Below are positions 566-6,719 of a stretch of 33,863 bases of DNA, one piece after another. The stretch's first letter is position 1. Each line of letters opens with the position of its first letter. Below the pieces are notes generated by a model. It made no database searches, was not told the origin of the DNA, and saw nothing but the letters and a program-made list of their open reading frames with translations. The stretch comes from an uncultured Oscillospiraceae bacterium. GTDB taxonomy: Bacteria; Bacillota; Clostridia; Oscillospirales; Oscillospiraceae. The DNA lies in NCBI GenBank assembly GCA_944385475.1, contig CALWXJ010000053.1, positions 1 to 33,863 on the forward strand. The letters run 5' to 3'. The translations under genes and the position numbers were made by a program.

Positions 566-3199
566 ATGGGAAAAAAATACTGCTACCTGTTCACAGAAGG
601 CAACGCCAACATGCGGGAGCTGCTGGGCGGCAAGGGCGCCAACCTGGCGGAGATGACCAATATCGGATTGCCGGTGCCTCAGGGCTTTACCATCACCACC
701 GAGGCCTGCACCCGCTACTATGAGGACGGCCAGAAAATCAGCGACGAGATCATGGCCGAGATCATGGAGTACGTAGAGAAGATGGAGTCCATCACCGGCA
801 AGAAGTTCGGTGACCAGGAAAATCCCCTGCTGGTCTCCGTCCGCTCCGGCGCCCGGGCCTCCATGCCCGGCATGATGGACACCATTTTGAACCTGGGCCT
901 CAACGAGGACGTGGTGGAGGTCCTGGCCAGAAAGTCCGGGAACCCCCGCTGGGCCTGGGACTGCTATCGCCGCTTCATCCAGATGTACTCCGACGTGGTG
1001 ATGGAGGTGGGCAAGAAATACTTCGAGCAGCTCATCGACCAGATGAAAGAGGCCCGGGGCGTCAGCCAGGACGTGGAACTCACCGCCCAGGACCTCAAGG
1101 AGCTGGCCGGCCAGTTCAAGGCCGAGTACAAGGCCAAGATCGGTGAGGACTTCCCCTCCGACCCCAAAGAACAGCTCACCGGCGCCATCAAGGCGGTGTT
1201 CCGCTCCTGGGACAATCCCCGGGCCAACGTCTATCGCCGGGATAACGACATCCCCTCCTCCTGGGGCACCGCCGTCAACGTCCAGTCCATGGCCTTCGGC
1301 AACATGGGGGACGACTGCGGCACCGGCGTGGCCTTCACCCGCAACCCTGCCACCGGCGAGAAAAAGCTCTTCGGCGAGTTCTTGACCAACGCCCAGGGCG
1401 AGGACGTGGTGGCCGGCGTCCGGACCCCCATGCCCATCGCCGAGATGGCGGAGAAATTCCCGGAGGCCTTTGCCCAGTTCGAGAAGGTCTGCCAGCTGCT
1501 GGAGAGCCATTATCACGACATGCAGGATATGGAGTTCACCGTGGAAAACGGCAAGCTCTATATGCTCCAGACCCGCAACGGCAAGCGCACCCCCGCCGCC
1601 GCCCTGAAGATCGCCTGCGATCTGGTGGACGAGGGCCAGATCGACGAAAAGCAGGCCGTGGCCATGATCGAACCCCGGTCTCTGGACGCCCTGCTCCATC
1701 CCCAGTTTGACGCGGAGGCCCTGAAGAAGGCCCCGGTGATGGGCAGCGCCCTGGCCGCCTCTCCCGGCGCCGCCTCCGGCAAGATCGTCTTCACCGCTGA
1801 GGATGCCAAGGAGTGGGCCCAGCGGGGAGAGAAGGTGGTACTGGTGCGTCTGGAGACCTCTCCTGAGGACATCGAGGGCATGAAGGCCGCCCAGGGCATC
1901 CTCACCGTCCGGGGCGGCATGACCTCCCACGCCGCCGTGGTGGCCCGGGGCATGGGCAAGTGCTGCGTCTCCGGCTGCGGCGCCATCACCATGAATGAGG
2001 CGGAAAAGTGCTTCACCCTCTCCGGCAAGACCTTCCATGAGGGGGATTGGCTCTCCCTGGACGGCTCCACCGGCAAGATCTATGACGGCGCCATCCCCAC
2101 GGTGGACGCCTCTGTGGGCGGCGACTTCGGCCGGATCATGGCCTGGGCGGACAAGCACCGCCGCATGAAGGTGCGCACCAACGCCGACACCCCCTATGAC
2201 GCCCGCAAGGCCCGGGAGCTGGGGGCCCAGGGCATCGGCCTTTGCCGCACGGAGCATATGTTCTTTGATGAGGACCGTATCCCCGCCATCCGGGAGATGA
2301 TCTGCTCGGACACCGTGGAGCAGCGGGAAAAGGCTCTGGCCAAGCTGGAGCCCATGCAGCAGTCCGACTTTGAGGGCATCTATGAGGCCATGGAGGACTA
2401 TCCCGTCACCATCCGCTTCCTGGATCCCCCGCTGCACGAGTTCCTCCCCACGGAGGAAGACGACATCGCCCTGCTGGCCAAGGATATGGGCAAGACCGTG
2501 GCGGAGATCAAGGCCATCATCGCCTCCCTCCACGAGTTCAACCCCATGATGGGCCACCGTGGCTGCCGCCTGGCCGTCACCTATCCCGAGATCGCCGTGA
2601 TGCAGACCCGGGCCGTCATCAAGGCCGCCCTGAACGTCCAGGCCCGCCATCCCGAGTGGAACATGGTCCCGGAGATCATGATCCCCCTGGTGGGCGAGGC
2701 CAAGGAGTTCAAGTACGTCAAGGACATCGTGGTGAAGACCGCCGACGAGCTCATCGCCGCCGCCGGCAGCAGCATGAAGTACCTGGTGGGCACCATGATC
2801 GAGATCCCCCGGGCCGCCCTCACCGCCGACGAGATCGCCAAGGAGGCCGACTTCTTCTCCTTCGGCACCAACGACCTCACCCAGATGACCTTCGGCTTCA
2901 GCCGGGACGACGCCGGCAAGTTCCTGGACGCCTACTACGATAAGAAGATCTATGAGAACGACCCCTTCGCCAAGCTGGACCAGGTGGGCGTTGGCAAGCT
3001 GGTGGACATGGCCTGCAAGCTGGGCCGCTCCACCAATCCCAACTTGCACCTGGGCATCTGCGGCGAGCACGGCGGCGACCCCTCCTCTGTGGAGTTCTGC
3101 CACCGCACGGGGCTGGACTATGTCTCCTGCTCTCCCTTCCGGGTGCCCATTGCCCGGCTGGCCGCCGCCCAGGCCGCCATTCGGGAGCTGAACAAGTAA
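566..3199 (+). CDS. ppdK: Pyruvate, phosphate dikinase
   Basis: Interconverts pyruvate, ATP and phosphate with phosphoenolpyruvate, AMP and pyrophosphate in the cytosol; in anaerobic clostridia it often serves pyrophosphate-linked glycolysis or PEP supply. The 877-residue product has full family length. An ATP-grasp part (about 1-340) carries GGKGANLAEM and SVRSGARASMPGMMDT. The central swivelling domain has GGMTSHAAV with the phospho-carrier His at residue 455 and Thr453, the site used for regulatory phosphorylation in plants. The C-terminal PEP/pyruvate barrel has LCRTEHMFF, GHRGCRL, FSFGTNDLTQ and GICGEHGGD with the catalytic Cys at 832. These positions match the well-studied Clostridium symbiosum enzyme almost exactly. 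The ATG at 566 is chosen because GGAGG (554-558) lies 7 bases upstream; the in-frame ATG at 560 is too close. The gene is monocistronic between its own promoter and terminator. Confidence 0.97.
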   Translation: MGKKYCYLFTEGNANMRELLGGKGANLAEMTNIGLPVPQGFTITTEACTRYYEDGQKISDEIMAEIMEYVEKMESITGKKFGDQENPLLVSVRSGARASMPGMMDTILNLGLNEDVVEVLARKSGNPRWAWDCYRRFIQMYSDVVMEVGKKYFEQLIDQMKEARGVSQDVELTAQDLKELAGQFKAEYKAKIGEDFPSDPKEQLTGAIKAVFRSWDNPRANVYRRDNDIPSSWGTAVNVQSMAFGNMGDDCGTGVAFTRNPATGEKKLFGEFLTNAQGEDVVAGVRTPMPIAEMAEKFPEAFAQFEKVCQLLESHYHDMQDMEFTVENGKLYMLQTRNGKRTPAAALKIACDLVDEGQIDEKQAVAMIEPRSLDALLHPQFDAEALKKAPVMGSALAASPGAASGKIVFTAEDAKEWAQRGEKVVLVRLETSPEDIEGMKAAQGILTVRGGMTSHAAVVARGMGKCCVSGCGAITMNEAEKCFTLSGKTFHEGDWLSLDGSTGKIYDGAIPTVDASVGGDFGRIMAWADKHRRMKVRTNADTPYDARKARELGAQGIGLCRTEHMFFDEDRIPAIREMICSDTVEQREKALAKLEPMQQSDFEGIYEAMEDYPVTIRFLDPPLHEFLPTEEDDIALLAKDMGKTVAEIKAIIASLHEFNPMMGHRGCRLAVTYPEIAVMQTRAVIKAALNVQARHPEWNMVPEIMIPLVGEAKEFKYVKDIVVKTADELIAAAGSSMKYLVGTMIEIPRAALTADEIAKEADFFSFGTNDLTQMTFGFSRDDAGKFLDAYYDKKIYENDPFAKLDQVGVGKLVDMACKLGRSTNPNLHLGICGEHGGDPSSVEFCHRTGLDYVSCSPFRVPIARLAAAQAAIRELNK

Positions 3200-3217
3200 G
3201 CCCCTTCCCAAAGGCGC

Positions 3218-3259
3218 AAAAAGCCCCGCCCCCTTATCTCAGGAGGCGGGGCTTTTTTT
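3218..3259 (+). terminator. Rho-independent terminator after ppdK
   Basis: The stem AAGCCCCGCC/GGCGGGGCTT is extended by A/T pairs and ends in seven T (3253-3259). It lies just 10 bases upstream of the -35 box of the methyltransferase promoter. Confidence 0.93.
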
Positions 3260-3268
3260 CAAAGGGGA

Positions 3269-3298
3269 CTAGACATTTCCCCCGTTTTCCGGTATAAT
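3269..3298 (+). promoter_or_regulatory. Promoter of the methyltransferase gene with CTAG in the -35 box
   Basis: The -35 TAGACA (3270-3275, five of six consensus bases) and the -10 TATAAT (3293-3298, consensus) are separated by exactly 17 bp. The tetramer CTAG at 3269-3272 covers the first three bases of the -35 box, including the strongly conserved third-position G. The predicted start near 3305 gives a leader of about 23 nt. Confidence 0.85.
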
Positions 3299-3327
3299 GG
3301 CCTTACACCACAAAAAGGGAGAACGCC

Positions 3328-4374
3328 ATGATCACCTCGTCTTTTCAATTCACCCATGCCGCCGCCCAGCACATGGCGGCGGTCCCCGACGGCTCTGTGG
3401 ACCTCATCGTCACCTCGCCCCCCTATCCCATGGTGGAGATGTGGGACGACTGCTTTTCCCGGCAGAGCGGGGCGGTGGCGGCGGCCATGGAGGCCGGGGA
3501 CTGGGACGGCGCCTTTGAGCAGATGCACCGGGTGCTGGACGGCGTGTGGGACGAGTGCTGCCGGGTGCTGCGCCAGGGGGGCTTCGCCTGCATCAATATC
3601 GGCGACGCCACCCGCAGCTGCGGCGGCACCTTCCGCCTGTTCTCCAACCACGCCCGGATCCTCCGCGCCCTGGAGGAGCGGGGCCTTTTCTGCCTGCCGG
3701 ACATCCACTGGAGAAAGCCCTCCAACGCCCCCAGCAAATTCATGGGCTCGGGGATGTATCCCGCCGGGGCGTATGTGACCTATGAGCACGAGTATATCCT
3801 CATCTTCCGCAAGGGGGGCAAGCGGGTGTTCCGCACCAGGGACGAGGTGGAGCGCCGCAGGGAGAGCGCCTATTTCTGGGAAGAGCGCAACACCTGGTTT
3901 TCCGACCTGTGGGAGATCAACGGCGCCCCCCAGGCCCTGAAAAACTGCCCCTCCCGGGCCCGGAGCGCCGCCTTCCCCCTGGAGGTGCCCTACCGGCTGG
4001 TGAACATGTACTCGGCTTATGGGGACACGGTGCTGGATCCCTTCGGGGGCCTGGGCACCACCGCCCTGGCCTGCGCCGGGGCCATGCGCAGCTGCCGGAT
4101 CTATGACGCCGACGCCGCCCTGCTCCGCTGTGCCCGGGATCTCTTTGCCCATAGCCTCCCCCTGTTCCAGGCCCTGCCCCGCCAGCGCCTGGAGCGGCAC
4201 CAGGCCTTCCTTTCCGCCCTGGATCCCCAGGCCCGGGAGCGGTGCTATCAAAACCTGCCCCACGGCTTTTTGGTGAAGACCCAGCAGGAGCGGCAGCTGC
4301 GCCTCTACCGGCCCCAGTCCATCGCCCCCCTTGGGGCGGAGGGCTTCACCCTCTCTTACGCCCCGTGGGAATGA
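3328..4374 (+). CDS. Type II DNA (cytosine-N4)-methyltransferase, likely CTAG-specific
   Basis: Transfers a methyl group from S-adenosylmethionine to DNA, protecting it from the partner nuclease encoded next door. The 348-residue protein has the catalytic motif IV as TSPPY (residues 29-33), followed by PMVEMWDD, and the SAM-binding motif I as DPFGGLGTT (237-245). This catalytic-first order is that of beta-class enzymes. The SPPY form of motif IV, rather than D/NPPY, favours N4-cytosine as the target. The start ATG at 3328 has AAGGGAG about 6 bases upstream. The gene stops 4 bases before the end of the convergent nuclease gene, with no terminator between them, so the transcripts should overlap. 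The CTAG specificity is inferred from the partner nuclease family. The type of enzyme is secure; the exact target is not. Confidence 0.88.
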   Translation: MITSSFQFTHAAAQHMAAVPDGSVDLIVTSPPYPMVEMWDDCFSRQSGAVAAAMEAGDWDGAFEQMHRVLDGVWDECCRVLRQGGFACINIGDATRSCGGTFRLFSNHARILRALEERGLFCLPDIHWRKPSNAPSKFMGSGMYPAGAYVTYEHEYILIFRKGGKRVFRTRDEVERRRESAYFWEERNTWFSDLWEINGAPQALKNCPSRARSAAFPLEVPYRLVNMYSAYGDTVLDPFGGLGTTALACAGAMRSCRIYDADAALLRCARDLFAHSLPLFQALPRQRLERHQAFLSALDPQARERCYQNLPHGFLVKTQQERQLRLYRPQSIAPLGAEGFTLSYAPWE

Positions 4375-4378
4375 GACC

Positions 4379-4972
4379 TCACTCCTCCACCTCCACCTTC
4401 AGATCTCCCCCCTTGCTCACCTGATAGTAGATCATGGTGGTGTCGATGGTCTCCGGCAGGCGGTCCATGGTCTTATAGGACTTGGGCTTGATGGAATAGG
4501 CCTTTTTCCCCACAAAGCCGTCCACCCCCTTTGCCTCCTCCTCCGGGGTGGCCAGGCGCCACGGCTTGCCCTTTTCCTTGGAAAGCGCCGCCAGGATGGA
4601 TTGCTGATAGGAAAGGCCGGCATAGGTCTTTTCCACCACCAGGTCCTCCACCCAGGAGCGCACCAGCTCCGGGGTGATCTCCTCCAGGGCCTCCCGGAGG
4701 TTTTCGATCTGATGGCAGATCTTCTCCGTGGCGGTGTCCACGGCGTGGGGATACTGCTGGCGGTACCACTGCCGCCACCCCTCCACAGAGGGCTCCTCCG
4801 CCTCCCGGCGGTACTGGGGGAGCAGCTGGGACATCTGCCCCACCACCCGGGGGCGGGTGCCCTGGGCGGTTTGATTGGCGCAGTTGATCAGCTGCGTGGT
4901 GTATTTGGGAAAGGTGGCTTTGGACGGGGCCGACTTCCCCTCCAGCTCCTCTTTGCGGATCTTAAACTCCAT
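4379..4972 (-). CDS. MjaI-family type II restriction endonuclease
   Basis: Predicted to cut unmodified DNA at the site protected by the adjacent methyltransferase. The 197-residue protein carries near its N terminus the run TFPKYTTQLINCANQ followed by TAQGTRPRVVGQMSQLL. I recognise this as the hallmark of the MjaI restriction-enzyme family, whose founder recognises CTAG. The match is from memory of the family, so the family call is probable and the specificity is inferred. The rest is mostly charged helix with a C-terminal lysine-rich part (KKAYSIKPKSYKTMD). The ATG at 4972 is chosen because AGGAGG (4986-4981) lies 8 bases upstream; an in-frame TTG at 5047 has no such site. It is convergent with the methyltransferase gene and has its own promoter about 165 bases upstream. 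Confidence 0.78.
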   Translation of the reverse strand: MEFKIRKEELEGKSAPSKATFPKYTTQLINCANQTAQGTRPRVVGQMSQLLPQYRREAEEPSVEGWRQWYRQQYPHAVDTATEKICHQIENLREALEEITPELVRSWVEDLVVEKTYAGLSYQQSILAALSKEKGKPWRLATPEEEAKGVDGFVGKKAYSIKPKSYKTMDRLPETIDTTMIYYQVSKGGDLKVEVEE

Positions 4973-5134
4973 GACGGATCCCTCCTGCTGCAATTTTTCC
5001 TCTGCCTCCGCCTCTCCTGCGGGGCGGAGGATTTTTTCGCTTCCCAAGGCACCCTCTCCCCCGCCCGGGGCAGCCAGGGCGGAGCCGGGCGCCCATTCAA
5101 GGCGGCTCCCGGCGGGCTATGTACCTTCAAAAAA

Positions 5135-5163
5135 ATTATAACATCTCCTCCCCCCGGTGAAAA
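5135..5163 (-). promoter_or_regulatory. Promoter of the endonuclease gene
   Basis: On the minus strand, -35 TTTTCA (5163-5158) and consensus -10 TATAAT (5140-5135) are spaced by 17 bp. The predicted start near 5128 leaves about 155 nt before the endonuclease ATG. No controller-protein gene or operator is visible. Confidence 0.7.
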
Positions 5164-5236
5164 GGGCCCTGGGAGGGCCTTCCGCTTCCGAGGGGATGGC
5201 CGGGAGGCCTTTTGTATTTTTCGGAAAAAATGTCTC

Positions 5237-5264
5237 TTGCTTTTTGTGCAAAAGAGCGTATACT
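5237..5264 (+). promoter_or_regulatory. Probable promoter of the MATE gene
   Basis: A -35 TTGCTT (5237-5242) and a -10 TATACT (5259-5264) are separated by 16 bp, about 80 bases before the MATE start codon. Confidence 0.55.
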
Positions 5265-5345
5265 GAAAAACCGTGAGAAATTTTGGCCCCGTGGGACGGA
5301 GGCTTCCCCCCTCCCGGAGCAGACAAGGCAGGGAGTGTTTTCACC

Positions 5346-6719
5346 ATGGAAAAAGATTTGACAGTGGGCCAGCCCCGGAGCGTGTTGTGGCGGTTTTGCC
5401 TGCCCCTCTTCGGCAGCATCCTCTTCCAGCAGCTCTACAACGTGGCCGACAGCCTGGTGGCCGGCCGCTTTGTAGGGGAGACGGCCCTGGCGGCGGTGGG
5501 CAACAGCTATGAGGTGACGCTGATCTTCCTGGCCTTCGCCTTCGGCTGCAGCATCGGCTGCTCGGTGGTGGTCTCCCGGCTCTTCGGCGCCCGGCGGACG
5601 GGGGAGATGAAGACCGCCGTGTCCACCGCCTTCCTCTCCAGCGCCGTGGTGTGCCTTTTGCTGATGGCGGTGGGTCTCACCCTGGGCACCACGCTGCTGC
5701 AGGCCATGAAGACCCCGGCGGAGGCCATGGCGGACTCCGCTCTCTACCTGCGGATCTATGTGCTGGGCCTGCCCTTTGTGTTCTTATACAATGTGGCCAC
5801 CGGCGTCTTCTCCGCCCTGGGAGATTCCCGCACCCCCTTCCTCTTCCTGGCCTGCTCCTCCGTGGGCAACATCCTGGTGGACATTCTCTTCGTCACCGCC
5901 TTCCACATGGGGGTGGCAGGGGTGGCCTGGGCCACCTTTTTGTGCCAGGGCATCAGCTGCGTCCTGGCGGTGTGGACGGTGCGGCGGCACCTGGGGGCCA
6001 TTCCCACCCAGGGGGAAGCCGTGCTGTTCTCCTGGTCCCTCTTCCGGCAGATCGCCGTCATCGCCGTGCCCAGCATCCTCCAGCAGAGCTTCATCTCCGT
6101 GGGCAACCTCTTTATCCAGGGGGTCATCAACAGCTTCGGCACCAGCGTCATGGCGGGATACTCCGCGGCGGTGAAGATGAACAACCTGGTGATCACCTCC
6201 CTCACCACCCTGGGCAACGGCATCTCCAACTACACCGCCCAGAACCTGGGGGCCGGCAAGCCCCACCGGGTGAAGGCTGGGTTCCGGGCAGGCCTGGGGC
6301 TGACGTGGGCGCTGTGCCTGCCGCTGATGGCCCTGTACTTCTTTTCCGGGGCGCCTTTGGTGGGGCTGTTCACCGACGGCTCCGCCCAGGGGGCCGTGGC
6401 AGTGGGGGTGCAGTTTTTGCAGGTGCTCTCGCCTTTCTACCTGGTGGCTGCCGCCAAGCTCACCGCGGATGGGATCCTCCGGGGGGCGGGGCTCATGGGC
6501 CGGTTCATGGCCGCCACCTTCACGGACCTCATCTTGCGGGTGGTGCTGGCGGTGGCCCTCTCAGACCTTCTCCACTCTCCCCTGGGGATCTGGTGGGCCT
6601 GGCCGGTGGGCTGGTGCGTGGCCACGGTGATGTCCCTTTGCTTTTACCACTACGGGCCCTGGCGCCAGGCCTCTCCCGCAGGGGAGGAAGTGCTGGAAGA
6701 GGCCGGGCAGGAGGCCTGA
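5346..6719 (+). CDS. MATE-family multidrug/metabolite exporter
   Basis: A polytopic inner-membrane protein of 457 residues, the usual size for MATE transporters, which export cationic drugs or metabolites in exchange for sodium or protons. It begins with PRSVLWRFCLPLFGSILFQQLYNVADSLVAGRFVG, split here as the family's first helix and the NVADSLVAGRF signature, then AAVGNSYEV. Two halves of six predicted helices follow, the second starting near FRQIAVIAVPSILQQSF with another SVGNLFIQGVIN run. The ATG at 5346 has GGGAG 10 bases upstream; earlier in-frame codons lack a ribosome site. The substrate cannot be told from sequence. It stands alone between its own promoter and a shared terminator with lepA, and nothing ties it functionally to the restriction unit. 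Confidence 0.9.
   Translation: MEKDLTVGQPRSVLWRFCLPLFGSILFQQLYNVADSLVAGRFVGETALAAVGNSYEVTLIFLAFAFGCSIGCSVVVSRLFGARRTGEMKTAVSTAFLSSAVVCLLLMAVGLTLGTTLLQAMKTPAEAMADSALYLRIYVLGLPFVFLYNVATGVFSALGDSRTPFLFLACSSVGNILVDILFVTAFHMGVAGVAWATFLCQGISCVLAVWTVRRHLGAIPTQGEAVLFSWSLFRQIAVIAVPSILQQSFISVGNLFIQGVINSFGTSVMAGYSAAVKMNNLVITSLTTLGNGISNYTAQNLGAGKPHRVKAGFRAGLGLTWALCLPLMALYFFSGAPLVGLFTDGSAQGAVAVGVQFLQVLSPFYLVAAAKLTADGILRGAGLMGRFMAATFTDLILRVVLAVALSDLLHSPLGIWWAWPVGWCVATVMSLCFYHYGPWRQASPAGEEVLEEAGQEA

Follow-up and report, generated by a model that had tools for sequence, protein, structure and literature searches.

The stretch of DNA analyzed here (the window) is the whole of contig C53 (33,863 bases, or 33.9 kb), which belongs to a genome of 1.73 Mb that is 86% complete. 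CTAG was counted over the full window, and the genes were studied up to about 8 kb. This region carries, in order, a thiamine transporter fragment, a PPDK gene with its end at 3199, a likely terminator, a promoter that contains CTAG, the gene for a DNA methyltransferase (MTase), a convergent endonuclease gene, and the gene for a MatE transporter. The features of concern are as follows.

3223 to 3259, forward strand: likely terminator of the PPDK gene, with an inverted repeat (3223-3230/3245-3252) followed by seven T
3269 to 3272: CTAG, predicted to be where the enzymes methylate and cleave, present as a single copy in the window and at the same position in L002, L003, L007, L136, and L059
3270 to 3275, forward strand: -35 element TAGACA, in which the bottom-strand C of CTAG lies opposite the G at -33
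3276 to 3292, forward strand: 17-nt spacer, with 24 to 47% identity among relatives and identical only in the L007/L136 pair
3293 to 3298, forward strand: -10 element TATAAT, invariant across the six aligned promoters
3328 to 4374, forward strand: DNA methyltransferase of 348 aa, N6_N4_Mtase (PF01555, 1.7e-36)
4379 to 4972, reverse strand: MjaI-family restriction endonuclease of 197 aa from the ATG at 4972 (PF09568 RE_MjaI, 9.3e-57), convergent with the MTase
5135 to 5163, reverse strand: candidate endonuclease promoter TTTTCA-17-TATAAT with TG before the -10 element, lacking CTAG and proposed from its consensus match only

The original prediction had placed a near-consensus -35/-10 pair at 3269 to 3298, with CTAG over the first three bases of the -35 box, and this is indeed what the sequence contains; the remaining base of CTAG is the one just before that box. 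A promoter scan of positions 1000 to 6000 returned two promoter-like sites, versus an average of 0.6 in shuffles, and TAGACA-17-TATAAT matches 11 of the 12 consensus bases. The end of the -10 box is separated by 29 nt from the ATG of the MTase gene at 3328. The inverted repeat at 3223 to 3259 is absent from the terminator-scan list, presumably because its 14-nt loop exceeds the loop limit of 8 used in the scan. With this likely terminator closing the PPDK gene, the MTase probably depends on, and is transcribed from, its own promoter. If CTAG is the recognition site, the predicted target of the enzyme overlaps a core element of the promoter of its own gene.

The MTase shows the beta order of motifs, with SPPY (residues 30 to 33) ahead of DPFGG (residues 237 to 241), and the endonuclease scores 191.9 bits against PF09568, versus a cut-off of 22.7. 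The MTase is 45% identical to that of plasmid pFZ1, which is likewise encoded convergently to an MjaI-family endonuclease; we take this plasmid to be the carrier of MthZI. M.MthZI is described as a characterized N4-methylcytosine CTAG enzyme, and deletion of a gene set including HVO_0794, its homolog in Haloferax, is described as abolishing N4-methylation at CTAG, in excerpts of PMC5867850. The two domain matches and the identity to the pFZ1 enzyme bear out the earlier assignment to the MjaI/MthZI family, and the choice of CTAG as the likely target gains support both from this homology to published CTAG enzymes and from the extra loss of CTAG in system-bearing genomes (see below). Hence, the locus probably encodes a type II restriction-modification system that is specific for CTAG and belongs to the MthZI/MjaI kind, its specificity and N4 chemistry being those predicted from its relatives. 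Among the matches listed, a detectable endonuclease open reading frame (ORF) lies near 56 of the 117 loci analyzed and is convergent in 51 of these 56. All six loci with the CTAG promoter described below have a convergent MjaI-family endonuclease ORF, which is partial in L007 and L136, where it matches only positions 37 to 156 of the 241 in the profile and may be broken or diverged.

The tetranucleotide CTAG has been largely lost from the sampled genomes. The window holds 1 copy versus 62 on average over 100 dinucleotide shuffles and an expectation of 20.9 by a trinucleotide Markov estimate, and a sample of 281,242 bases from the same genome holds 8, with 188 expected; if this sample is typical, the genome retains about 50 copies. 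Three of the eight sampled copies lie in tRNA genes, two for tRNA-Thr and one for tRNA-Met (L021:83-158, L026:328-404), as if RNA structure had demanded their survival. Four of the five remaining copies sit on two contigs shorter than 4 kb, which could be foreign to the bin. Across the five genomes that bear the arrangement of CTAG promoter and MTase (G000, G291, G293, G086, and G773), we counted 19 copies in 557 kb sampled versus 513 expected, one of the 19 being the promoter copy of G291. For seven relatives whose search did not recover the MTase, six from the same genus as the window and one from that of G086, the count is 58 copies in 307 kb sampled versus 223 expected. The observed-to-expected ratio is 0.04 in the former set and 0.26 in the latter (Fisher test, about 1e-12). 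Thus, CTAG is avoided by the whole group and far more so by the genomes that bear the system. No CTAG other than the promoter copy occurs in the 33.9 kb of the window, in the 20 kb around the gene in G291, in the 19.9 kb around it in G293, or in the 8.9 kb of L059, for which the scarcity is known from this locus; the corresponding stretches of G086 (20 kb) and G773 (11.3 kb) each have one further copy. Given the rarity of CTAG in the window and in the sample of its genome, its exact placement at the -35 element of the MTase gene is far beyond chance.

We then considered the promoters of related MTases. The word CTAGACA-17-TATAAT lies upstream of six of them (that of the window, L002, L003, L007, L136, and L059), and both CTAGACA and TATAAT are unchanged in all six aligned promoters. 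The first five are among the nine close homologs recovered from the searched genomes of the family (E < 1e-60, with the MTase of the window included); the other four of the nine lack the strict promoter. L059 comes from a Bacillota metagenome-assembled genome (MAG) in a named collection from which the best 80 of 549 relatives were taken. In the wider family, the strict promoter is present, among the matches listed, in 6 of 116 MTase upstream regions, a set that includes two repeats (L038 of L004 and L052 of L006), and most members are without it. Outside the upstream-region counts, CTAG is likewise absent from the 250 nt upstream of L303 and from the upstream regions of two weaker homologs, L008 and L009, while a motif search at L167 and L168, loci around endonuclease matches, yielded no MTase. 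Relaxing the pattern to any CTAG at -35 with a TAnnnT -10 element gave 7 hits in 113 upstream regions, a number that shuffles can also yield (mean, 3.3; maximum, 8), and the evidence presented here is that of the strict pattern alone. The set of 113 omits L038, L052, and L173; the MTase of G730 (L135/L173), whose upstream region has no CTAG, is absent from both this set and the tree of 111 MTases described below.

Several other candidates were set aside. The sequence CTAGATA-17-TATGAT at L174 is doubtful, as that 4-kb locus has 8 CTAG and the site is missing from L175 and L056, which are closely related to it; a second CTAG lies 14 bp farther upstream. More distant upstream copies (L047, L061/L062, L065, L073, and others) do not match even the loose pattern. 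The MTases of L061 and L062 are identical and share their CTAG context at -53, and the two MAGs are labelled Parabacteroides and Gastranaerophilales, which suggests either recent transfer or mis-binning. Searches of phages recovered no relative of the MTase. Viral contigs yielded 17 (L118 to L134), and the strict promoter is absent from all of these. Some of them lie in CTAG-rich DNA (e.g., L122, with 34 CTAG in 9 kb), and they are possibly phage-borne protection against CTAG restriction.

The sequences around the two conserved words have diverged widely. The 40 nt upstream are 7 to 35% identical among the six and 40% identical in the pair L007/L136. The tree of 111 MTases places the six in two well-supported groups. 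The proteins share 49 to 59% identity both between these groups and within that of the window; L059 is 68 to 70% identical to L007 and L136, which are themselves 96% identical. End branches in the group of the window reach 0.6 to 0.8 changes per column. A topology test does not reject a single clade for the six (p-AU 0.47), which means that separate inventions need not be assumed; the simplest history is a single origin with long retention thereafter. On a simple consensus scale that we devised, each of the six promoters scores 9.2, while among 32 further MTases from the clade around them, which is mostly Bacillota, 31 fall below this value, with a median of about 7; the promoter of L046 (TTGACA) also reaches 9.2, and that of L054 reaches 9.1. 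The CTAG group looks like a strong promoter combined with a brake.

The alignment of relatives for which the original prediction had called favors it, as CTAG is kept in their -35 element although TTGACA-17-TATAAT is, within the family, about 30 times as common as TAGACA-17-TATAAT. The same seven-letter and -10 words in all six, the spacers that have diverged outside the near-identical L007/L136 pair, and the CTAG-depleted genomes together match the pattern expected of a site kept by selection, a standard that we added to those for promoter-methylation control. As CTAG is retained where it is largely missing elsewhere, and despite an A at -34 that departs from the best -35 element, the comparison points to selection for CTAG itself.

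The position of the site within the -35 element suggests how such a brake might work. In paired N4-methylcytosine, the methyl group lies in the major groove and replaces a hydrogen available to a glutamate. The helix that bears E585 is kept in the best sigma-70 region 4 match of the genome (the main sigma factor of the host), and we take its sequence to be the same as that of Escherichia coli. Portions of a review (PMC2613000) state that E585 of sigma-70 contacts the template-strand C of the -33 base pair and that E585Q relaxes specificity at -33; the contact is given as -33G and -31C in a portion of PMC10911233 and as -32 and -33 in one of PMC5101437. Since E585 reads the C at -33 and its helix is kept, methylation of the template strand should weaken the promoter. 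Unmodified DNA, upon first entry or in enzyme shortage, would present a near-consensus sigma-A promoter with high MTase output. An N4-methyl group on the template C at -33 would remove the hydrogen-bond donor that E585 of sigma region 4.2 reads, and the methylated promoter would be weakened to maintenance-level MTase synthesis; the C of the top strand, at -36, lies beyond the hexamer. Replication would leave an unmethylated template C in one daughter only, and a pulse of MTase would come from one of the two copies. With the endonuclease gene convergent and no CTAG near it, the brake would act on the MTase alone. We consider it probable that the strong promoter of the MTase gene is braked by the product of its own enzyme, both the sign and the size of the effect being predicted ones.

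Other regulators were sought in the flanks of the locus. A C-protein gene was not found beside the MTase and endonuclease genes, whose neighbors encode PPDK and MatE, and the scanned ORFs of at least 40 aa in the gaps at 3200 to 3327 and 4973 to 5345 had no Pfam match; the search covered the flanks except for two long ORFs that run antisense to the genes for PPDK and the MTase. The claim that the unit has no visible controller thus holds among the flanking ORFs tested. Nor did Pfam show an N-terminal regulatory domain of the SsoII/EcoRII/Ecl18kI kind in the MTase, whose MTase domain match spans residues 24 to 256 with no other Pfam domain. This bears on an alternative in which the MTase protein sits on the CTAG of the -35 element and blocks RNA polymerase irrespective of methylation. 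A target inside the -35 box would serve such autorepression equally well, and conservation cannot tell binding from methylation. However, no domain of the SsoII kind was found ahead of the MTase domain match, which starts at residue 24, and a short target should be weakly held once modified; we regard repression by binding as unlikely.

It is also rather improbable that the CTAG is incidental, with TAGACA an acceptable -35 variant inherited in the clade and the preceding C there by chance. Counts over 101 family genomes are 2785 for TTGACA-17-TATAAT, 91 for TAGACA-17-TATAAT, and 10 for CTAGACA-17-TATAAT, and two of these ten are MTase promoters (G000 and G086). The 91 occurrences suit an incidental origin, as does the compatibility of the tree with a single one, and so does the use of the full word elsewhere. 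In 400 family genomes, CTAGACA-17-TATAAT occurs at 31 places in 26 genomes, versus 4 for a reversed control pattern; 5 of the 26 have it as an MTase promoter, and 18 of the other 21 were searched without the MTase being found. In three genomes of one genus (L149, L150, and L151), it precedes a glyceraldehyde-3-phosphate dehydrogenase (gap)-like gene, and in three of another genus (L152, L153, and L154), it precedes a flagellar basal-body-like gene; these gene names were assigned by eye, and the MTase was not found in these genomes. As the word also stands at such ordinary genes, CTAGACA is usable as an ordinary -35 element. Against this, the sampled genomes with the arrangement hold about 4% of the expected CTAG, and yet the promoter copy stays while spacer and flanks diverge. 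Further, C precedes TAGACA in only 10 of the 91 background cases, including the two MTase promoters, versus 6 of 6 here, and in each of G000, G291, G293, G086, and G773, the MTase promoter is the only CTAGACA-17-TATAAT in the genome.

A role of the promoter CTAG as an endonuclease target, with cutting or binding at low methylation silencing the MTase and killing the cell (addiction), is compatible with the endonuclease ORF adjoining the MTase in all six and with the site being among very few CTAG in the sampled genome, but it is very improbable, because any other CTAG could serve for killing, with no need of a precise position at -33 or of a 17-nt spacer, and because L007 and L136 keep the promoter despite their partial endonuclease match. 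The proposal that methylation of the promoter site controls MTase synthesis is strengthened in part by the architecture, the family, and the conservation of the site, and it is tempered by the use of the same word at ordinary genes and by its absence from most MTases of the family. With methylation as the brake, a further and more tentative possibility is a replication-coupled methylation gauge, in which only the daughter with the newly made, unmethylated template strand would fire and the promoter, with few CTAG left in the genome, would read the enzyme level directly; loss of CTAG and retention of the promoter would then be one evolved circuit across diverged Bacillota.

Control of this kind has precedents in CfrBI, AhdI, and LlaDII, whose target sequences differ from CTAG. 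The CfrBI site presumably overlaps the -35 element of its MTase gene, with N4-methylcytosine as the mark. In the excerpted text of a review (PMC12707154), promoter methylation is described as a rare way of controlling type II systems, with these three as examples; methylation of its own site in the promoter region is said to block RNA polymerase at the MTase promoter of CfrBI, while in AhdI (also in an excerpt of PMC5333194) and LlaDII, it affects the MTase gene alone. The CfrBI genes are divergent with overlapping promoters, and methylation shifts the polymerase to the endonuclease promoter, whereas the genes here are convergent and the site is in the MTase promoter only. AhdI also has a controller protein according to that excerpt of PMC5333194, unlike the present locus, where none was found among the flanking ORFs. 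The MthZI (pFZ1) and MjaI systems differ from that of the window in their archaeal host, and the convergent MTase and MjaI-family endonuclease of pFZ1 resemble those described here; the pFZ1 MTase gene (L180) has no CTAG in the 250 nt upstream. HVO_0794, the CTAG MTase of Haloferax volcanii, is described in part of PMC5867850 as an orphan without an endonuclease, and the Haloferax relatives L108 and L115 also show no CTAG within 250 nt upstream. A literature search, with subscription papers mostly beyond its reach, found no report of promoter-methylation control in CTAG systems.

Thus, the kind of control is already known from CfrBI, AhdI, and LlaDII, and what looks to be new, judging from the conserved promoters, is a conserved case in CTAG systems of the MthZI/MjaI type. 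With other CTAG nearly absent from the sampled genomes, the retained copy clearly points to selection, and the six natural promoters, which share one seven-letter word and have mostly unrelated spacers, are ready material for a test. In these bacteria, one methyl group on the template base read by sigma at -33 could be the whole regulator.
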